Shown: in pieces, positions 489 through 6,344 of the stretch
Layout of the letters: every line of letters starts with the position of its first letter
How positions within the stretch are numbered: the stretch's first letter is position 1
From: Streptosporangium sp. NBC_01495
GTDB lineage: Bacteria; Actinomycetota; Actinomycetes; Streptosporangiales; Streptosporangiaceae
NCBI RefSeq assembly: GCF_036250735.1
Contig: NZ_CP109430.1
Location: 868,001 to 932,000, forward strand
DNA: 64,000 bases
Direction: 5' to 3'
Made by a program: the position numbers and the translations under genes
Notes under the pieces: generated by a model
Seen by the model: the letters and a program-made list of their open reading frames with translations, nothing else
Told to the model about the DNA's origin: nothing
Database searches by the model: none

Positions 489-506
489 GATGAGAGTCTT
501 CTCATC
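489..506. promoter_or_regulatory. Operator-like dyad A of the sortase/two-component locus
   Basis: GATGAGA and TCTCATC form inverted arms around GTCT, about 45 nt before the small Asp-tailed protein gene. Almost the same site recurs at 3223-3240 before the repeat surface protein, making it the best candidate site for the response regulator encoded between them. Confidence 0.5.
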
Positions 507-550
507 TCCATCACAGCCTGATCTCCCGTGGCGGCGCCTAGCGTGGAGGC

Positions 551-952
551 ATGAGCCGCAGGACATCCACCGTCTCCCTGATGATCGGGATACTCGCCAC
601 CGCGGTCGCGATGGTCGCGGTCGTGGTTCTGGTCCAACGCAACCCGGGTGACCTCGGGAACGCCGTCGTGGTCGACCGGGACCGTGGGAGCGAGACGGCC
701 GAGACGGGCGCCGCGCAGCCGCCGCCCTCCGGAGACTCCACGGCACCGGCCGACCCCCGGGCCTCGGACGGCTCCGGGGCCCCCGGCGATCCGAAGGTGC
801 GGGGCGATCGGACATCTCCCGGTTCCGCGACCTCCGGCGAGCCCGGGGCGTCCAGCGTGACCGGAAGGGAGCGGGCCGAACGGGTGAAGCCGCCGCCGCC
901 GCCGCGAGGCGGAGATGACGACGACGATGACGGTGGTGGCGATGACGACTGA
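551..952 (+). CDS. Small membrane-anchored protein with Asp-rich tail
   Basis: 133 aa. Residues 9-28 form one strongly hydrophobic segment after MSRRTST, so this is a signal anchor or uncleaved signal peptide. The rest is Pro/Gly/Ser/Asp-rich and of low complexity, with a PPPPP stretch, and it ends in DDDDDDGGGDDD. The acidic tail resembles the Asp runs of the surface protein at 3324, and both genes share an upstream dyad. The ATG has a GGAGG 4 nt away and also a TAGCGT element 6 nt upstream. The same frame stays open past the stop TGA (950-952) right into the kinase gene. No known domain is recognised; a role as envelope accessory to the sensor kinase is inference. Confidence 0.6.
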   Translation: MSRRTSTVSLMIGILATAVAMVAVVVLVQRNPGDLGNAVVVDRDRGSETAETGAAQPPPSGDSTAPADPRASDGSGAPGDPKVRGDRTSPGSATSGEPGASSVTGRERAERVKPPPPPRGGDDDDDDGGGDDD

Positions 953-1099
953 GGCGGCGGCCACCGAGGTGACGGCGGTCCCCGGCGCGACGGTGCCCAG
1001 GACGGCCGAAGCGGCGCTCATCGGGAAGGCGGTCACCGGGGAGGCGACGGCCGGGACGGCGGTGGCCGGAGCGGCGGCGGCAGAGGCGACGGCCGGACG

Positions 1100-2488
1100 G
1101 TGAGCGCACGGGCCCGCATCGTGGGCTGGATGCTCGTGGTCGTCGGCCTCGCCCTGAGCGTCTCGGTGTTCGCCACCTGGACCATCCTGCTGGCCACGCT
1201 CGAAAACCGGGTGAACGCCGAGCTGGCCAACGAGATGGAGAAACTCCGCAAGTACGCAGAGAGTTCGTCCGCCTCTCCGAGGGCGATGCTTGAGGACTAC
1301 ATGGCGGTCAACGCGCCCGACCGCCACGAGACCTTCTTCGTGATCGTGGACGGTAAGGCCCGATGGGTCACGTACGCCGACCCCCCGGCCGTACTGGACA
1401 CCGACGAGGCGCTCGTGGCGCGGATGGCCGCCGCGACCGAGCCCGAGCAGGACTGGGCCACCAGTACGGCCGGGCGCGTCCGCTGGGCGGTCATGCCCGT
1501 GATCGCCGACGGCGAGATCGAGGGCTCCTTCGTGGCCATCGTCTTCTACGACCTCGAACGCCAGGAGATCGTCGAGGCGGTGCGCGTGCTGGGCCTCACC
1601 GCGCTGGCGGCGCTGCTCCTGGCCGGGGCCGCCGGCTGGTTCGTCGCGGGAAGGGTTCTCGCCCCCGTACGGCTGGTCCGCCAGACGGCGGAGCGGATCG
1701 GTGGCTCCGGCGATCTCAGCCGGCGCCTCGCCGTCTCCGGCGACGACGACGTCTCCGCGCTGGCCGCGACCTTCAACCACATGCTCGACCGGCTGGAACG
1801 TGCCTTCGCCGTGCAGCGCGACTTCCTCGACGACGCCGGCCACGAGCTGCGCACCCCGATCACGGTCGTCCGCGGCCACCTCGAACTCATGGGCGACGAC
1901 CCCGGGGAACGGGCGGCCACCCTGGCCCTGGTCACCGACGAGCTGGGACGGATGAACAGGCTCGTCGACGACCTGATCATGCTCGCCAGGTCCGAGCAGC
2001 CGGGCTTCGTCACCCCCGGTGAGGTCGAGCTCGCCGACCTCACCGTCGAGGTCGTGGCCAAGGCCCGAGCCCTGGGAGAGCGCCGCTGGCGGGTGGACGA
2101 GGTGGCCGAGGAACAGGTCACGGCCGACAGGCAGCGTCTCACCCAGGCGCTGATACAGCTCGTGGCCAACGCCGTGCGGCACACCGGTCCCGGCGACCTG
2201 ATCGCGGTCGGTTCCGCCGTACGGGAAGGCCAGGTGGAGCTGTGGGTGCGCGACACCGGTCCCGGCGTGCCGGAGCAGGACCGCGAACGGATCTTCAACC
2301 GCTTCGTCCGGGGCGCGGCCCGCACCGGGTCGCACGACGGCGCGGGACTCGGCCTCGCCATCGTCCGCTCCATCGCCGAGGCACATCGGGGCATCGTGCG
2401 GGTCCGCGAGGCGAACGGGGGCGGGGCGCTCTTCCTGATCTCCTTCCCATACGAGGAGATCCCCCTGACGTCTCCGTACGAGGACTGA
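1100..2488 (+). CDS. Two-component sensor histidine kinase
   Basis: 462 aa membrane kinase. Transmembrane segments lie at about residues 10-32 and 160-183 and enclose an extracytoplasmic sensor domain of about 125 residues. A HAMP linker follows, then HisKA with FLDDAGHELRTP (phospho-acceptor His248), an N box (LVANAVRHT) and G boxes DTGPGVP and GAGLGLAIV. It would autophosphorylate and pass phosphate to the regulator 76 nt downstream. GTG start at 1100; there is no clear Shine-Dalgarno sequence, and the frame is continuous with the upstream Asp-tailed protein apart from one TGA. The context with a sortase and Asp-rich surface proteins suggests envelope or cation sensing, which is inference. 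Confidence 0.9.
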   Translation: MSARARIVGWMLVVVGLALSVSVFATWTILLATLENRVNAELANEMEKLRKYAESSSASPRAMLEDYMAVNAPDRHETFFVIVDGKARWVTYADPPAVLDTDEALVARMAAATEPEQDWATSTAGRVRWAVMPVIADGEIEGSFVAIVFYDLERQEIVEAVRVLGLTALAALLLAGAAGWFVAGRVLAPVRLVRQTAERIGGSGDLSRRLAVSGDDDVSALAATFNHMLDRLERAFAVQRDFLDDAGHELRTPITVVRGHLELMGDDPGERAATLALVTDELGRMNRLVDDLIMLARSEQPGFVTPGEVELADLTVEVVAKARALGERRWRVDEVAEEQVTADRQRLTQALIQLVANAVRHTGPGDLIAVGSAVREGQVELWVRDTGPGVPEQDRERIFNRFVRGAARTGSHDGAGLGLAIVRSIAEAHRGIVRVREANGGGALFLISFPYEEIPLTSPYED

Positions 2489-2564
2489 TGTCCCCGTACG
2501 AGAAGAACCCTGCCGCGCGGTGCGGAAGACGCGACCGTGACAGTCCCCGAGGGAGGAGCCAAGG

Positions 2565-3227
2565 GTGAACCGCATCCTGATAGCCGAGGACGAGGGCCGG
2601 ATCGCGTCCTTCCTGGAGAAGGGCCTGAGAGGCAACGGGTTCACGACCACCGTCGTCGCGGACGGGGTCGCGGCGTACGAGTACGCCCGCGCCGGTCGCT
2701 TCGACCTGATGATCCTGGACATCGGGCTTCCCCTGAGCGACGGTTTCACGGTCCTGCGACGGCTCCGGCAGGAGATGGCGACCATTCCCGTGATCATCCT
2801 CACCGCCCGTGACAGCGTCGCCGACACCGTCGCGGGCCTTGAGGGCGGTGCCGACGACTACCTCGCCAAACCCTTCTCCTTCGAGGAGCTGCTGGCCCGG
2901 GTACGGCTCCGCCTGCGCCCGGAACGCGTTCCCGAGACGACCGTCCTGCGCGTCGGTGACCTCGCCCTGGACCTGCGGACCCGGCGGGCTCACGTGGGCG
3001 ACCGCTCCGTCGACCTGTCCACCCGCGAGTTCGCCCTCGCGGAGATCTTCTGCCGCCATCCCGACCAGGTTCTCACCCGCCAGCAGCTGCTCAGCCACGT
3101 GTGGGGGTTCGACTTCGACCCCGGCTCGAACGTGGTGGACGTCTACGTCCGCTACCTGCGTCGCAAGCTGGGAAACCAGCGGATCGAGACCGTCAGGGGT
3201 TCCGGCTACCGCCTGCGAGTCGGGTGA
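2565..3227 (+). CDS. OmpR/PhoB-family response regulator
   Basis: 220 aa. The N-terminal receiver has the acidic pocket AEDEG, phospho-acceptor Asp52 (MILDIGLP) and the conserved Lys in YLAKPF. The C-terminal winged helix has the usual LSTREFALAEIFCRHP, VWGFDFDPGSNVVDVYVRYLRRK-type recognition region and a GSGYRLR end. GTG start with GGGAGGAG upstream. It pairs with the kinase at 1100. Its probable targets are the two dyads at 489 and 3223; the second of these starts at its own stop codon. Confidence 0.92.
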   Translation: MNRILIAEDEGRIASFLEKGLRGNGFTTTVVADGVAAYEYARAGRFDLMILDIGLPLSDGFTVLRRLRQEMATIPVIILTARDSVADTVAGLEGGADDYLAKPFSFEELLARVRLRLRPERVPETTVLRVGDLALDLRTRRAHVGDRSVDLSTREFALAEIFCRHPDQVLTRQQLLSHVWGFDFDPGSNVVDVYVRYLRRKLGNQRIETVRGSGYRLRVG

Positions 3228-3251
3228 GAGTCCTCTCATCCCACGCTCATG
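3223..3251. promoter_or_regulatory. Operator-like dyad B plus CTCATC direct repeats
   Basis: TGAGA-GTCC-TCTCA (3225-3238) matches the dyad at 489-506 in 13 of its central 14 bases. A second CTCAT element follows 11 bp after the first (3235 and 3246), the usual spacing for OmpR-type head-to-tail dimers. It lies 84 nt before the repeat surface protein gene. Confidence 0.5.
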
Positions 3252-3323
3252 ATGGGTCCACCGGCCACCGGAAATCTTGAGTCATCCGCACAGAAGGTGC
3301 GGAACGACCTTCAGGAGGGCCAG

Positions 3324-4025
3324 ATGAGCCTGGTACTACGGCGGACCCTGCTCGCCATCGCGATCACCCTCGGACTCGGGACCACCGGCGTCCTCGCCGG
3401 TATCCCGGCGGCCCAGGCGTCCGCGTTCCCGGCCTCGCCCACGGCGGTGACCCACGTCGCGGACGATGACGACGATGATGACGACGACGATGACAGAGGC
3501 GGTGATGACGACGACGGCGGTGACGACGATCGTGATGACCGCGACGACAAGGACGACCGGCGAGCCGGACCCGCCGACGACCGGGACGACGACCTCCCCC
3601 GGGGCGGCGTGGAGACCGGCCAGGGCAGTACATCGCGTGACGATGACGATGATGACGATGACCGGGCGCCTGCGGGTGGGGTGGAGACCGGTCAGGGTGG
3701 TGCGTCGCGTGACGATGACGATGATGACGATGACCGGGCGCCTGCGGGTGGGGTGGAGACCGGTCAGGGTGGTGCGTCGCGTGACGATGACGATGATGAC
3801 GATGACCGGGCGCCTGCGGGTGGGGTGGAGACCGGTCAGGGTGGTGCGTCGCGTGATGACGACGATGACGACGACCGCGCTCCGGCCGGCGGGGTGGAGA
3901 CCGGGTTCGGCGGGACGGCCGAGAGGGAGGGCATGCCGCTCTGGGTGCCGGTGGGACTGGCCGGTAGCGCGCTGCTGGCGGGTGGCGGCTTCTGGTTCAG
4001 CCGCCGATTCACCTCGGGGAGCTGA
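3324..4025 (+). CDS. Asp-rich repeat surface protein, probable sortase substrate
   Basis: 233 aa. A signal peptide (LRRTLLAIAITLGLGTTGVL, ending AQASA) is followed by an Asp run with scattered Gly and Arg. Then come tandem units of 24 residues, each made of an Arg-flanked run of 7-8 Asp plus RAPAGGVETGQGG. The last unit ends GGVETGFGGTAE and is followed by one membrane span (LWVPVGLAGSALLAGGGFWF) and a basic tail (SRRFTSGS). This is the layout of a wall-anchored protein: motif, membrane span, positive tail. GGVETG is the likely sorting motif in place of LPXTG, because actinobacterial class F sortase neighbours often carry GG-V-[DE]-TG-type motifs (recalled, not searched). ATG at 3324 is chosen for its CAGGAGGGC. 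The dense Asp suggests divalent-cation binding. Confidence 0.75.
   Translation: MSLVLRRTLLAIAITLGLGTTGVLAGIPAAQASAFPASPTAVTHVADDDDDDDDDDDRGGDDDDGGDDDRDDRDDKDDRRAGPADDRDDDLPRGGVETGQGSTSRDDDDDDDDRAPAGGVETGQGGASRDDDDDDDDRAPAGGVETGQGGASRDDDDDDDDRAPAGGVETGQGGASRDDDDDDDRAPAGGVETGFGGTAEREGMPLWVPVGLAGSALLAGGGFWFSRRFTSGS
3636..3919 (+). repeat. 72-bp in-frame tandem repeat in the surface protein gene
   Basis: Three nearly identical 72-bp units (3636-3707, 3708-3779, 3780-3851) and a fourth diverged, shorter one encode the Asp-run plus GGVETG module. The near identity of the first three at DNA level, including synonymous positions, points to recent expansion. Copy number is likely to vary between strains. 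Confidence 0.9.
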
Positions 4026-4027
4026 CC

Positions 4028-4636
4028 GTGCGGACCCCCGGTGCCCTCGTGGCCGCTCTCTCCACTCTCTCCGCCCTCGTGGCCCTGACCGCGTGCTCCA
4101 CCGAGGTCGCCGCGCACAGCGCCTCCACAACCTCCACGGCCTCCACGGTTTCCGGAGCTTCCACGGTCACCCAGGTCGTACGGCCTCCCGCCAGGGGTGA
4201 GGTCGCCAACCCCGTGCGGCTCCGCGTACCGGCGATCGGGGTCTCCACCACGGTGATCGCGTTGAAGCTGGACGCGAGGAACAAGCTGGTCGCTCCGGCT
4301 CGCTTCGACCGGGTGGGCTGGAACAAGGCCGGTCCCGAGCCCGGCGAGGCCGGTGCGGCGGTCATCGCCGGGCACGTGGACTCCAGGACGGGGCCCGCTG
4401 TCTTTTACCGGCTCGGGAAACTCCGTCCGGGACACCGCGTCCACGTCGACAGGGCCGACGGAAGCACGGTGACGTTCACCGTCCGGCGCCTGGCCCGCTT
4501 CCCGAAGAGCCGGATCCCCGACCGGCAGGTGTACGGATCCTCCAAGGGAGCCGAGCTGAGGCTCATCACCTGTGGTGGGACCTTCGACCGCAAGCGGCGC
4601 AGCTACCGGGACAACGTGATCGTGTTCGCAAGCTGA
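4028..4636 (+). CDS. Class F-like sortase (cysteine transpeptidase)
   Basis: 202 aa. The N-terminus has a hydrophobic signal with a lipobox-like LTAC, then a Ser/Thr linker. The sortase barrel starts at VRLRVPAIGV and shows the catalytic His in VIAGHVDS, the nucleophile Cys in LITCGGTF and the Arg in RRSYRDN. Short length, single N-terminal anchor and no C-terminal span fit the actinobacterial class F group. GTG start 2 nt after the stop of the Asp-rich protein, so the two are co-transcribed and very probably enzyme and substrate. It would cleave the sorting motif and join the protein to peptidoglycan. Confidence 0.85.
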   Translation: MRTPGALVAALSTLSALVALTACSTEVAAHSASTTSTASTVSGASTVTQVVRPPARGEVANPVRLRVPAIGVSTTVIALKLDARNKLVAPARFDRVGWNKAGPEPGEAGAAVIAGHVDSRTGPAVFYRLGKLRPGHRVHVDRADGSTVTFTVRRLARFPKSRIPDRQVYGSSKGAELRLITCGGTFDRKRRSYRDNVIVFAS

Positions 4637-6037: not shown

Positions 6038-6175
6038 GTCCCGGTACGCGGGAGTTCCGGCGTTCGTGGGCGTCTCGGTACGCGGAAGCTCCAGTGTTCG
6101 TAAAAGTCCGGGCACGCGGGGGTTCCGGTGTTCGTGGGAGTCCCGATACGCAGGGGAGCCCCGGTGTCCGTGGGA
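6038..6175. repeat. 34-bp degenerate tandem repeat, four copies
   Basis: Units start at 6038, 6072, 6106 and 6140 and follow the pattern GTCCCGGTACGCGGGAGTTC followed by CGGTGTTCGTGGG. Copies are contiguous and about 80% alike, with no unique spacers. Confidence 0.85.
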
Positions 6176-6229
6176 ACGGAACCGGGGCTCGGGTGCCGCC
6201 GGGGCGGTTGCCCCGCGCACGGTCGTCAA

Positions 6230-6344
6230 GAACGCCCGCTCCTTCACGTGGAGCCTGGGAACACCTGCTCCTTCGCGTGAAGCCCGAGGACGCCCGCTCC
6301 TTCGTATGGAGCCCGAGAACACCCGCCTTTCGCGCGGGACCCGG
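6230..6344. repeat. 29-bp degenerate tandem repeat, four copies
   Basis: Units start at 6230, 6259, 6288 and 6317 and follow GAACACCCGCTCCTTCGCGT plus GGAGCCCGA. The sequence is unrelated to the 34-bp array just upstream. Confidence 0.85.

Follow-up and report, generated by a model that had tools for sequence, protein, structure and literature searches.

Here we describe a cluster of five co-directional genes (551 to 4636) in Streptosporangium sp. NBC_01495 that most likely, judging from its sequence and that of its relatives, makes a regulated, aspartate-rich (Asp-rich) coat protein that is anchored to the wall and in which several sorting sites can be used. The organism belongs to the Streptosporangiaceae, as does Sinosporangium album, one of the relatives discussed below. 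The cluster lies in a 64,000-nt stretch of contig NZ_CP109430.1 (positions 868,001 to 932,000), hereafter the window, and coordinates are counted from its first base. In the explanation that we favour, a two-component system would switch the cluster on and off, probably through two dyads, and the cluster would yield the Asp-rich surface protein together with its own class F sortase, which would read the motif GGV[DE]TG. The last copy of the motif, by a hydrophobic stretch and a basic tail, would be the ordinary anchoring site; internal copies would also be recognised, and the choice of copy would give wall-fixed Asp-rich chains of differing length. In some relatives a deletion would have fused a span-less substrate to the sortase, giving an enzyme that bears the motif itself and probably acts in cis. 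We assign a probability of about 0.5 to this explanation as a whole (gene cluster, dedicated sortase, internal copies as recognition sites). Dedicated sorting of the Asp-rich protein is very probable, recognition of the internal copies by the sortase is slightly favoured, and binding of cations by the Asp runs in vivo is a tentative suggestion. The substrate, its motif copies and the sortase are placed as follows.

3324 to 4025, forward strand: Asp-rich protein and putative sortase substrate (NF058571): signal peptide, five GGVETG, then hydrophobic stretch and basic tail
3603 to 3620, forward strand: GGVETG copy 1
3675 to 3692, forward strand: GGVETG copy 2
3747 to 3764, forward strand: GGVETG copy 3
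3819 to 3836, forward strand: GGVETG copy 4
3888 to 3905, forward strand: GGVETG copy 5, the final copy, shortly before the hydrophobic stretch and the Arg-Arg tail
4028 to 4636, forward strand: class F sortase (NF033748) with a lipobox-like N-terminus, LTAC, its Cys codon at 4094-4096

The motif copies follow one another at 72, 72, 72 and 69 nt, or 23-24 residues, with Asp runs between them, and Tandem Repeats Finder (TRF) reports a 72-nt unit at 3602-3904 in 4.2 copies with 92% matches. The signal peptide was recognised by eye. The protein is without an LPXTG-type pentapeptide, and GVETG stands in its place; the tripartite layout of a sorting signal is complete, from the motif through the hydrophobic stretch to the basic tail. 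The hydrophobic stretch is only moderate, its Kyte-Doolittle maximum of 1.35 being among the lowest of 43 substrates; in the separate substrates found by rule the maximum exceeds 1.6 in 40 of 43, and all 43 have at least two Lys or Arg within the last 12 residues. Against the NCBIfam model NF058571, ‘GVDTG sorting domain’, the protein scores 86.8 bits (cut-off 29) with five matched stretches. It shares motif, hydrophobic stretch and basic tail with the proteins of that family, but the model describes one C-terminal copy over 44 positions, whereas here five matching stretches stand between Asp runs. The Asp-rich protein is probably disordered.

The sortase scores 191.1 bits against the class F model NF033748 (cut-off 166) and resembles that class also in its His, Cys and Arg motifs, AGHVDS, LITCGG and YRDN (codons at 4373, 4571 and 4607), where the Arg is the one that, by analogy, we take to be catalytic. 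Sorting motif and sortase class are thus already known as curated models. A search of solved structures by sequence gave no match for the sortase and a search by profile gave one, 4d70; the best 50 Foldseek matches of a modelled Rhizohabitans fusion, a relative described below, are sortases, including classes C, A, D and E. Three further relatives occur in the same genome at E up to 0.001 (39-44% identical), so the enzyme is one of several.

To see how far this arrangement extends, a junction query was run over 345 genomes of the order and cut at 180 bits, where scores show a gap from 183.5 to 164.9 bits; this gave 50 genomes, and all 50 loci of what we call the subfamily were read. Of the 16 genomes searched in the genus of the window, only two belong to this set, which makes the distribution of the system patchy. 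A fixed rule finds the motif in 48 of the 50 loci, with one copy in six and two to eight in 42; these counts may miss variants, such as an extra GAVDTG in genome G212, and one locus (G018) is truncated by a contig end. Read by eye, the two loci missed by the rule have GGVDTG, GGVDTG and GGVNAG far before the span (G214) or GGADNG only (G354). A preliminary description of the window had called five motifs in one protein odd; they turn out to be the rule in this sortase subfamily, and the conservation of the copies in homologues, on which it had made its interpretation depend, is borne out.

A second sample of 80 named loci, found with ten sortases and overlapping the first in species, was read with a similar rule and gave a motif-bearing open reading frame (ORF) in 27 of 31 loci from Streptosporangiales, with at least two copies in 23 of these, and in 34 of 49 other loci, with two copies in one (Prauserella endophytica). 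We rejected the idea that the repeats are chance or a peculiarity of the window genome, given their recurrence across subfamily loci and the second sample. Copy number, which the preliminary description had proposed to compare among relatives, ranges from one to eight and changes faster than the sortase: two loci (G132 and G047) have five and three copies at 99.3% identical sortase domains, and a second pair has eight and three at 93.6%, although numbers from draft genomes may be distorted by repeat assembly.

The His/Cys/Arg set is complete in 47 of the 50 subfamily loci. In one exception (genome G354, locus L201) the sortase reads LIAYRGG where others have LITC[GA]G, so that the catalytic Cys is lost; its substrate still has Asp-rich part, span and tail, and GGADNG is its only remnant of the motif. 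This joint loss is the outcome expected of a motif that persists because the sortase uses it. The other two exceptions, G256 and G257 (L169 and L171), carry Gln where the presumed catalytic Arg would stand, and their sortases have identical catalytic domains. An alternative is that the repeat serves no sortase and that the protein remains in the membrane beside a sortase with other targets. The motif does differ from LPXTG, and we know of no experiment that links class F sortases to GVxTG. We nevertheless hold this to be highly improbable in view of the match to the curated GVDTG sorting model, the adjacency or fusion of substrate and sortase by rule in 48 of 50 subfamily loci, and the decay of Cys and motif together in G354. 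The earlier claim that a class F sortase adjoins its likely substrate thus holds, with both models above their cut-offs and the pairing recurring in subfamily loci.

The closest association of the two partners is found in five subfamily genomes, where signal peptide, Asp-rich part, motif copies and sortase domain form one ORF. The copies number three in Sinosporangium siamense, three in Sinosporangium album, one in Rhizohabitans arisaemae, four in Nonomuraea dietziae (G245) and three in G225, which bears the same genus label as N. dietziae. Four of the fusions were compared with NCBIfam, and three exceed both cut-offs; the Rhizohabitans protein, with its one copy, reaches 21.4 against 29 bits for GVDTG. 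No hydrophobic span follows the Asp run in any of the five (maximum 1.07), and the last motif stands 11-15 residues from the catalytic domain. A sixth fusion, in Actinoallomurus purpureus (L131:5059-6465), joins a DUF4397 substrate that bears GGVDTG to a sortase domain within a single ORF, again with no span between. These natural sortase-substrate fusions without a span, five in the subfamily and one with DUF4397, are new here. That the fused frames are one assembly slip was considered and rejected, as six distinct fused ORFs occur among 121 distinct sortase-like ORFs (225 loci).

How a fusion may have come about is suggested by G245 (fused) and G212 (separate), whose junctions differ by a net 231 bases, in frame; in G212 these encode the span, the tail, the stop and the signal peptide of the sortase. 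The two adjoin in the tree with support 100/99, and well-supported branches require at least two changes between the fused and the separate state. A single origin of the five subfamily fusions was rejected by the approximately unbiased (AU) test (p 0.007) and by the pairing of G245 with G212. On this phylogenetic evidence the subfamily fusions arose by more than one event, and one fusion followed by later splitting is possible. A lipobox-like N-terminus is commoner in the subfamily (35 of 45 separate sortases) than in other related sortases (11 of 52, under a nearly equal rule; a PROSITE-type pattern was used), and the subfamily stands apart from the class F family also in its five fused members. 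By this N-terminus the sortase of the window, like the other separate enzymes that bear it, is probably a lipoprotein that sits on the outside of the membrane; fusion removes the lipobox, so the fused enzymes are probably not lipid-held. The notion that the genome of a fused enzyme offers it nothing else to act on found no support, since the five genomes with fusions contain 11 further GVDTG-like matches (E up to 0.001). At four of these 11 places, which were inspected, another sortase gene lies near, and in L207 it lies directly downstream.

Within the proteins, the internal copies are conserved in their own right. A search for segments of 12-30 residues between Asp runs, not anchored on the motif, finds GG[VIA]x[TA]G in 128 of 139, and the extended repeat consensus reads P-[RS]-GGV[DE]TG-x-G-G. 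When adjacent copies of one protein are compared, the core codons (G, G, V, T, G) differ by 244 silent and 28 replacing changes; under neutrality a silent share of about 0.30 would be expected at such codons. The residue x after TG shows 14 silent and 72 replacing differences; it was picked for its variability and is hence no neutral yardstick. Over all copy pairs and six codons there are 696 silent and 173 replacing differences, 104 of the latter at the D/E position. Since pairs inside one protein are not independent, the count was made per protein, and the silent share exceeds 0.30 in 41 of 41 proteins that show a core difference. Judged by these codon counts, selection maintains the motif copies, the internal ones included.

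These data can be set against an alternative in which only the last copy sorts and the internal copies are a spacer repeat that spans the wall or binds cations and that arose when the C-terminal segment was duplicated. A recent expansion is clear from copies 2-4 of the window, whose DNA is nearly identical, and Asp runs are retained along with the motif. The two classes of copy are also not the same: after TG, Lys stands in 38 of 130 internal copies and in one of 48 last copies, and Met in 7 of 130 and 17 of 48. What makes a mere spacer somewhat unlikely is that selection acts on the core of the motif and on the GG behind it in internal as well as in last copies, that no intact copy is left in G354, where the sortase has lost its Cys, and that three or four copies persist in four of the five subfamily fusions, which lack a span.

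The residues past the presumed cut lead to a further possibility, that cutting between T and G gives a GGVET donor and a Gly-x-Gly-Gly acceptor, with units shuffled, joined head to tail or ringed; the Lys after TG, in lineages having one, may be an acceptor. Class A sortases use Gly acceptors, and in internal copies G-x-G-G is nearly fixed, with the first G in 130 of 130 and the later G in 113 of 130. We consider it improbable that chains are joined in this way. Class C sortases, the pilin-joining class, share the sortase fold, but their model is not among the matches of the window sortase at E up to 1 and gives about 14 bits against a cut-off of 160 in three fused relatives; moreover, the Asp-rich core of the window protein holds one Lys, and the six cores counted hold 0-6. 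A broader and rather doubtful proposal is that GGV[DE]TG is a two-way joint, cut or joined at every copy into chains, ladders or rings, and that a fused sortase works once and anchors itself, fastening the N-terminal half of its chain either to the wall or to some other chain while releasing the catalytic domain. If this were true, there would be a class of natural sortase-substrate fusions that act in cis without a membrane span.

Upstream of the substrate gene lie the other three genes of the cluster and the two dyads.

489 to 506, no strand: dyad 1, GATGAGAG-TCT-TCTCATC, with core TGAGAGNNNTCTCA at 491-504, 5' of the first gene; probable regulator box
551 to 952, forward strand: Asp-tailed membrane protein with N-terminal signal anchor, LG..VVV element and PVKPPPP.RGGDDDD-like tail
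1100 to 2488, forward strand: sensor histidine kinase with HAMP, HisKA and HATPase domains
2565 to 3227, forward strand: OmpR-type response regulator
3225 to 3238, no strand: dyad 2, TGAGAGTCCTCTCA (equal to the TGAGAGNNNTCTCA core), 5' of the substrate gene

Gene order and spacing suggest that the five genes form one transcript, and the layout is not chance, because it recurs in relatives. All the elements that the preliminary description had named, from the five GGVETG parted by Asp runs, the span and the sortase to the Asp-tailed protein, kinase, regulator and shared dyad, are present. A kinase was seen near the sortase in 31 of the 50 stretches read, and its extracellular part can be aligned in 30 loci. 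The dyad, ATGAGA-N3-6-TCTCAT, occurs in 29 of these 31 loci and in none of the other 19, and it was absent from 20 randomised sets of the 31 loci with the same first-order make-up. The TGAGAGNNNTCTCA core has four occurrences in the 11.1-Mb genome of the window, of which two belong to this locus; the backwards-read control gave one. One of the other two genomic dyads (L202:1501) lies, by eye, about 50 bases before a seeming OmpR-type regulator gene. The co-occurrence of dyad and two-component pair speaks for the dyad as an operator, and many loci are without both. Among the fusions, G225 and G245 retain kinase, Asp-tailed gene and dyad; no kinase was seen in the stretch read for the other three of the subfamily, though in one of these, G275, a similar dyad, TGAGACACCTCTCA, immediately precedes the fused ORF.

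An Asp-tailed protein precedes the kinase in 30 of the 31 kinase-bearing loci. One kinase-bearing locus (G023) has neither dyad nor Asp-tailed protein, and its kinase, about 7 kb before the sortase, is perhaps unrelated to the locus. The Asp-tailed membrane proteins form a small conserved family, and the window member matches nothing in Pfam or NCBIfam at E up to 1. Its likeness to a membrane-bound copy of the acidic part of the substrate suggests a co-sensor role, and it suggests no more. Window kinase and regulator fall below the cut-offs of the heavy-metal families TIGR01386 and TIGR01387 (199.7 against 292.55 and 209.8 against 279.2 bits, respectively). Elsewhere in the window are two more tandem arrays, at 6038-6175 and 6229-6334, with 34-nt and 29-nt units.

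Several observations weigh against a regulated protein with several usable sorting sites. Repetition is not required, since six of the 48 proteins have one copy, next to or fused with a sortase whose own motifs are intact. The joint loss in G354 is a single case, and G256 and G257 retain three copies in spite of their Arg to Gln change. The Asp runs vary about as little as the motif does, which would allow the repeat as a whole to be retained for another reason. Ala replaces Thr in 11 of 131 internal and one of 48 last copies (Fisher p 0.19). In the AlphaFold2 model of the Rhizohabitans fusion the sortase domain is confident, but the motif (within residues 66-80) is disordered, with pLDDT below 50 and no sign of docking; the alignment behind the model has the motif part in 5 of 47 rows. 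Finally, 19 of the 50 loci have no kinase in the stretch read, which is short upstream in G018, G040 and G234, so this regulation is not general. The two-component system of the preliminary description accordingly stands for the window and for relatives with a kinase nearby, not for the subfamily at large, and its interpretation is supported in part, with cuts at internal copies, linking of chains and a response to cations as the conjectural parts.

Related arrangements can be recognised elsewhere. A 2026 study (PMC13251363) reports that deletion of four class F sortases in Actinoplanes gave no phenotype, and calls the physiological role of the class unknown. It describes AMIS_11010 and AMIS_36440 of Actinoplanes missouriensis, which adjoin class F sortases and have signal peptide, span and basic tail, as possibly substrates, not counted as candidates for want of a known pentapeptide motif; the word GVDTG is absent from its main text. 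In these three features and in their neighbour the two proteins are like the window substrate. Two other Actinoplanes loci (L125 and L129) have GGVATG before a sortase. DUF4397 proteins with one GGVxTG by a related sortase (L035) have the same sorting end and neighbour but, unlike the window substrate, a folded domain, a single motif and no Asp runs. Neither repeated GVxTG motifs nor natural sortase-substrate fusions turned up in the literature searched, which covered few subscription papers.

The fusions and repeats described here may shed light on what class F sortases, which are little understood, act on and do. The subfamily offers a clear motif, a substrate that is adjacent or part of the enzyme's own chain, a natural instance of enzyme loss, and a regulator whose candidate operator can be seen. 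For the organisms themselves, it points to a very acidic surface protein of one group of soil bacteria in which the sorting tag is repeated up to eight times.

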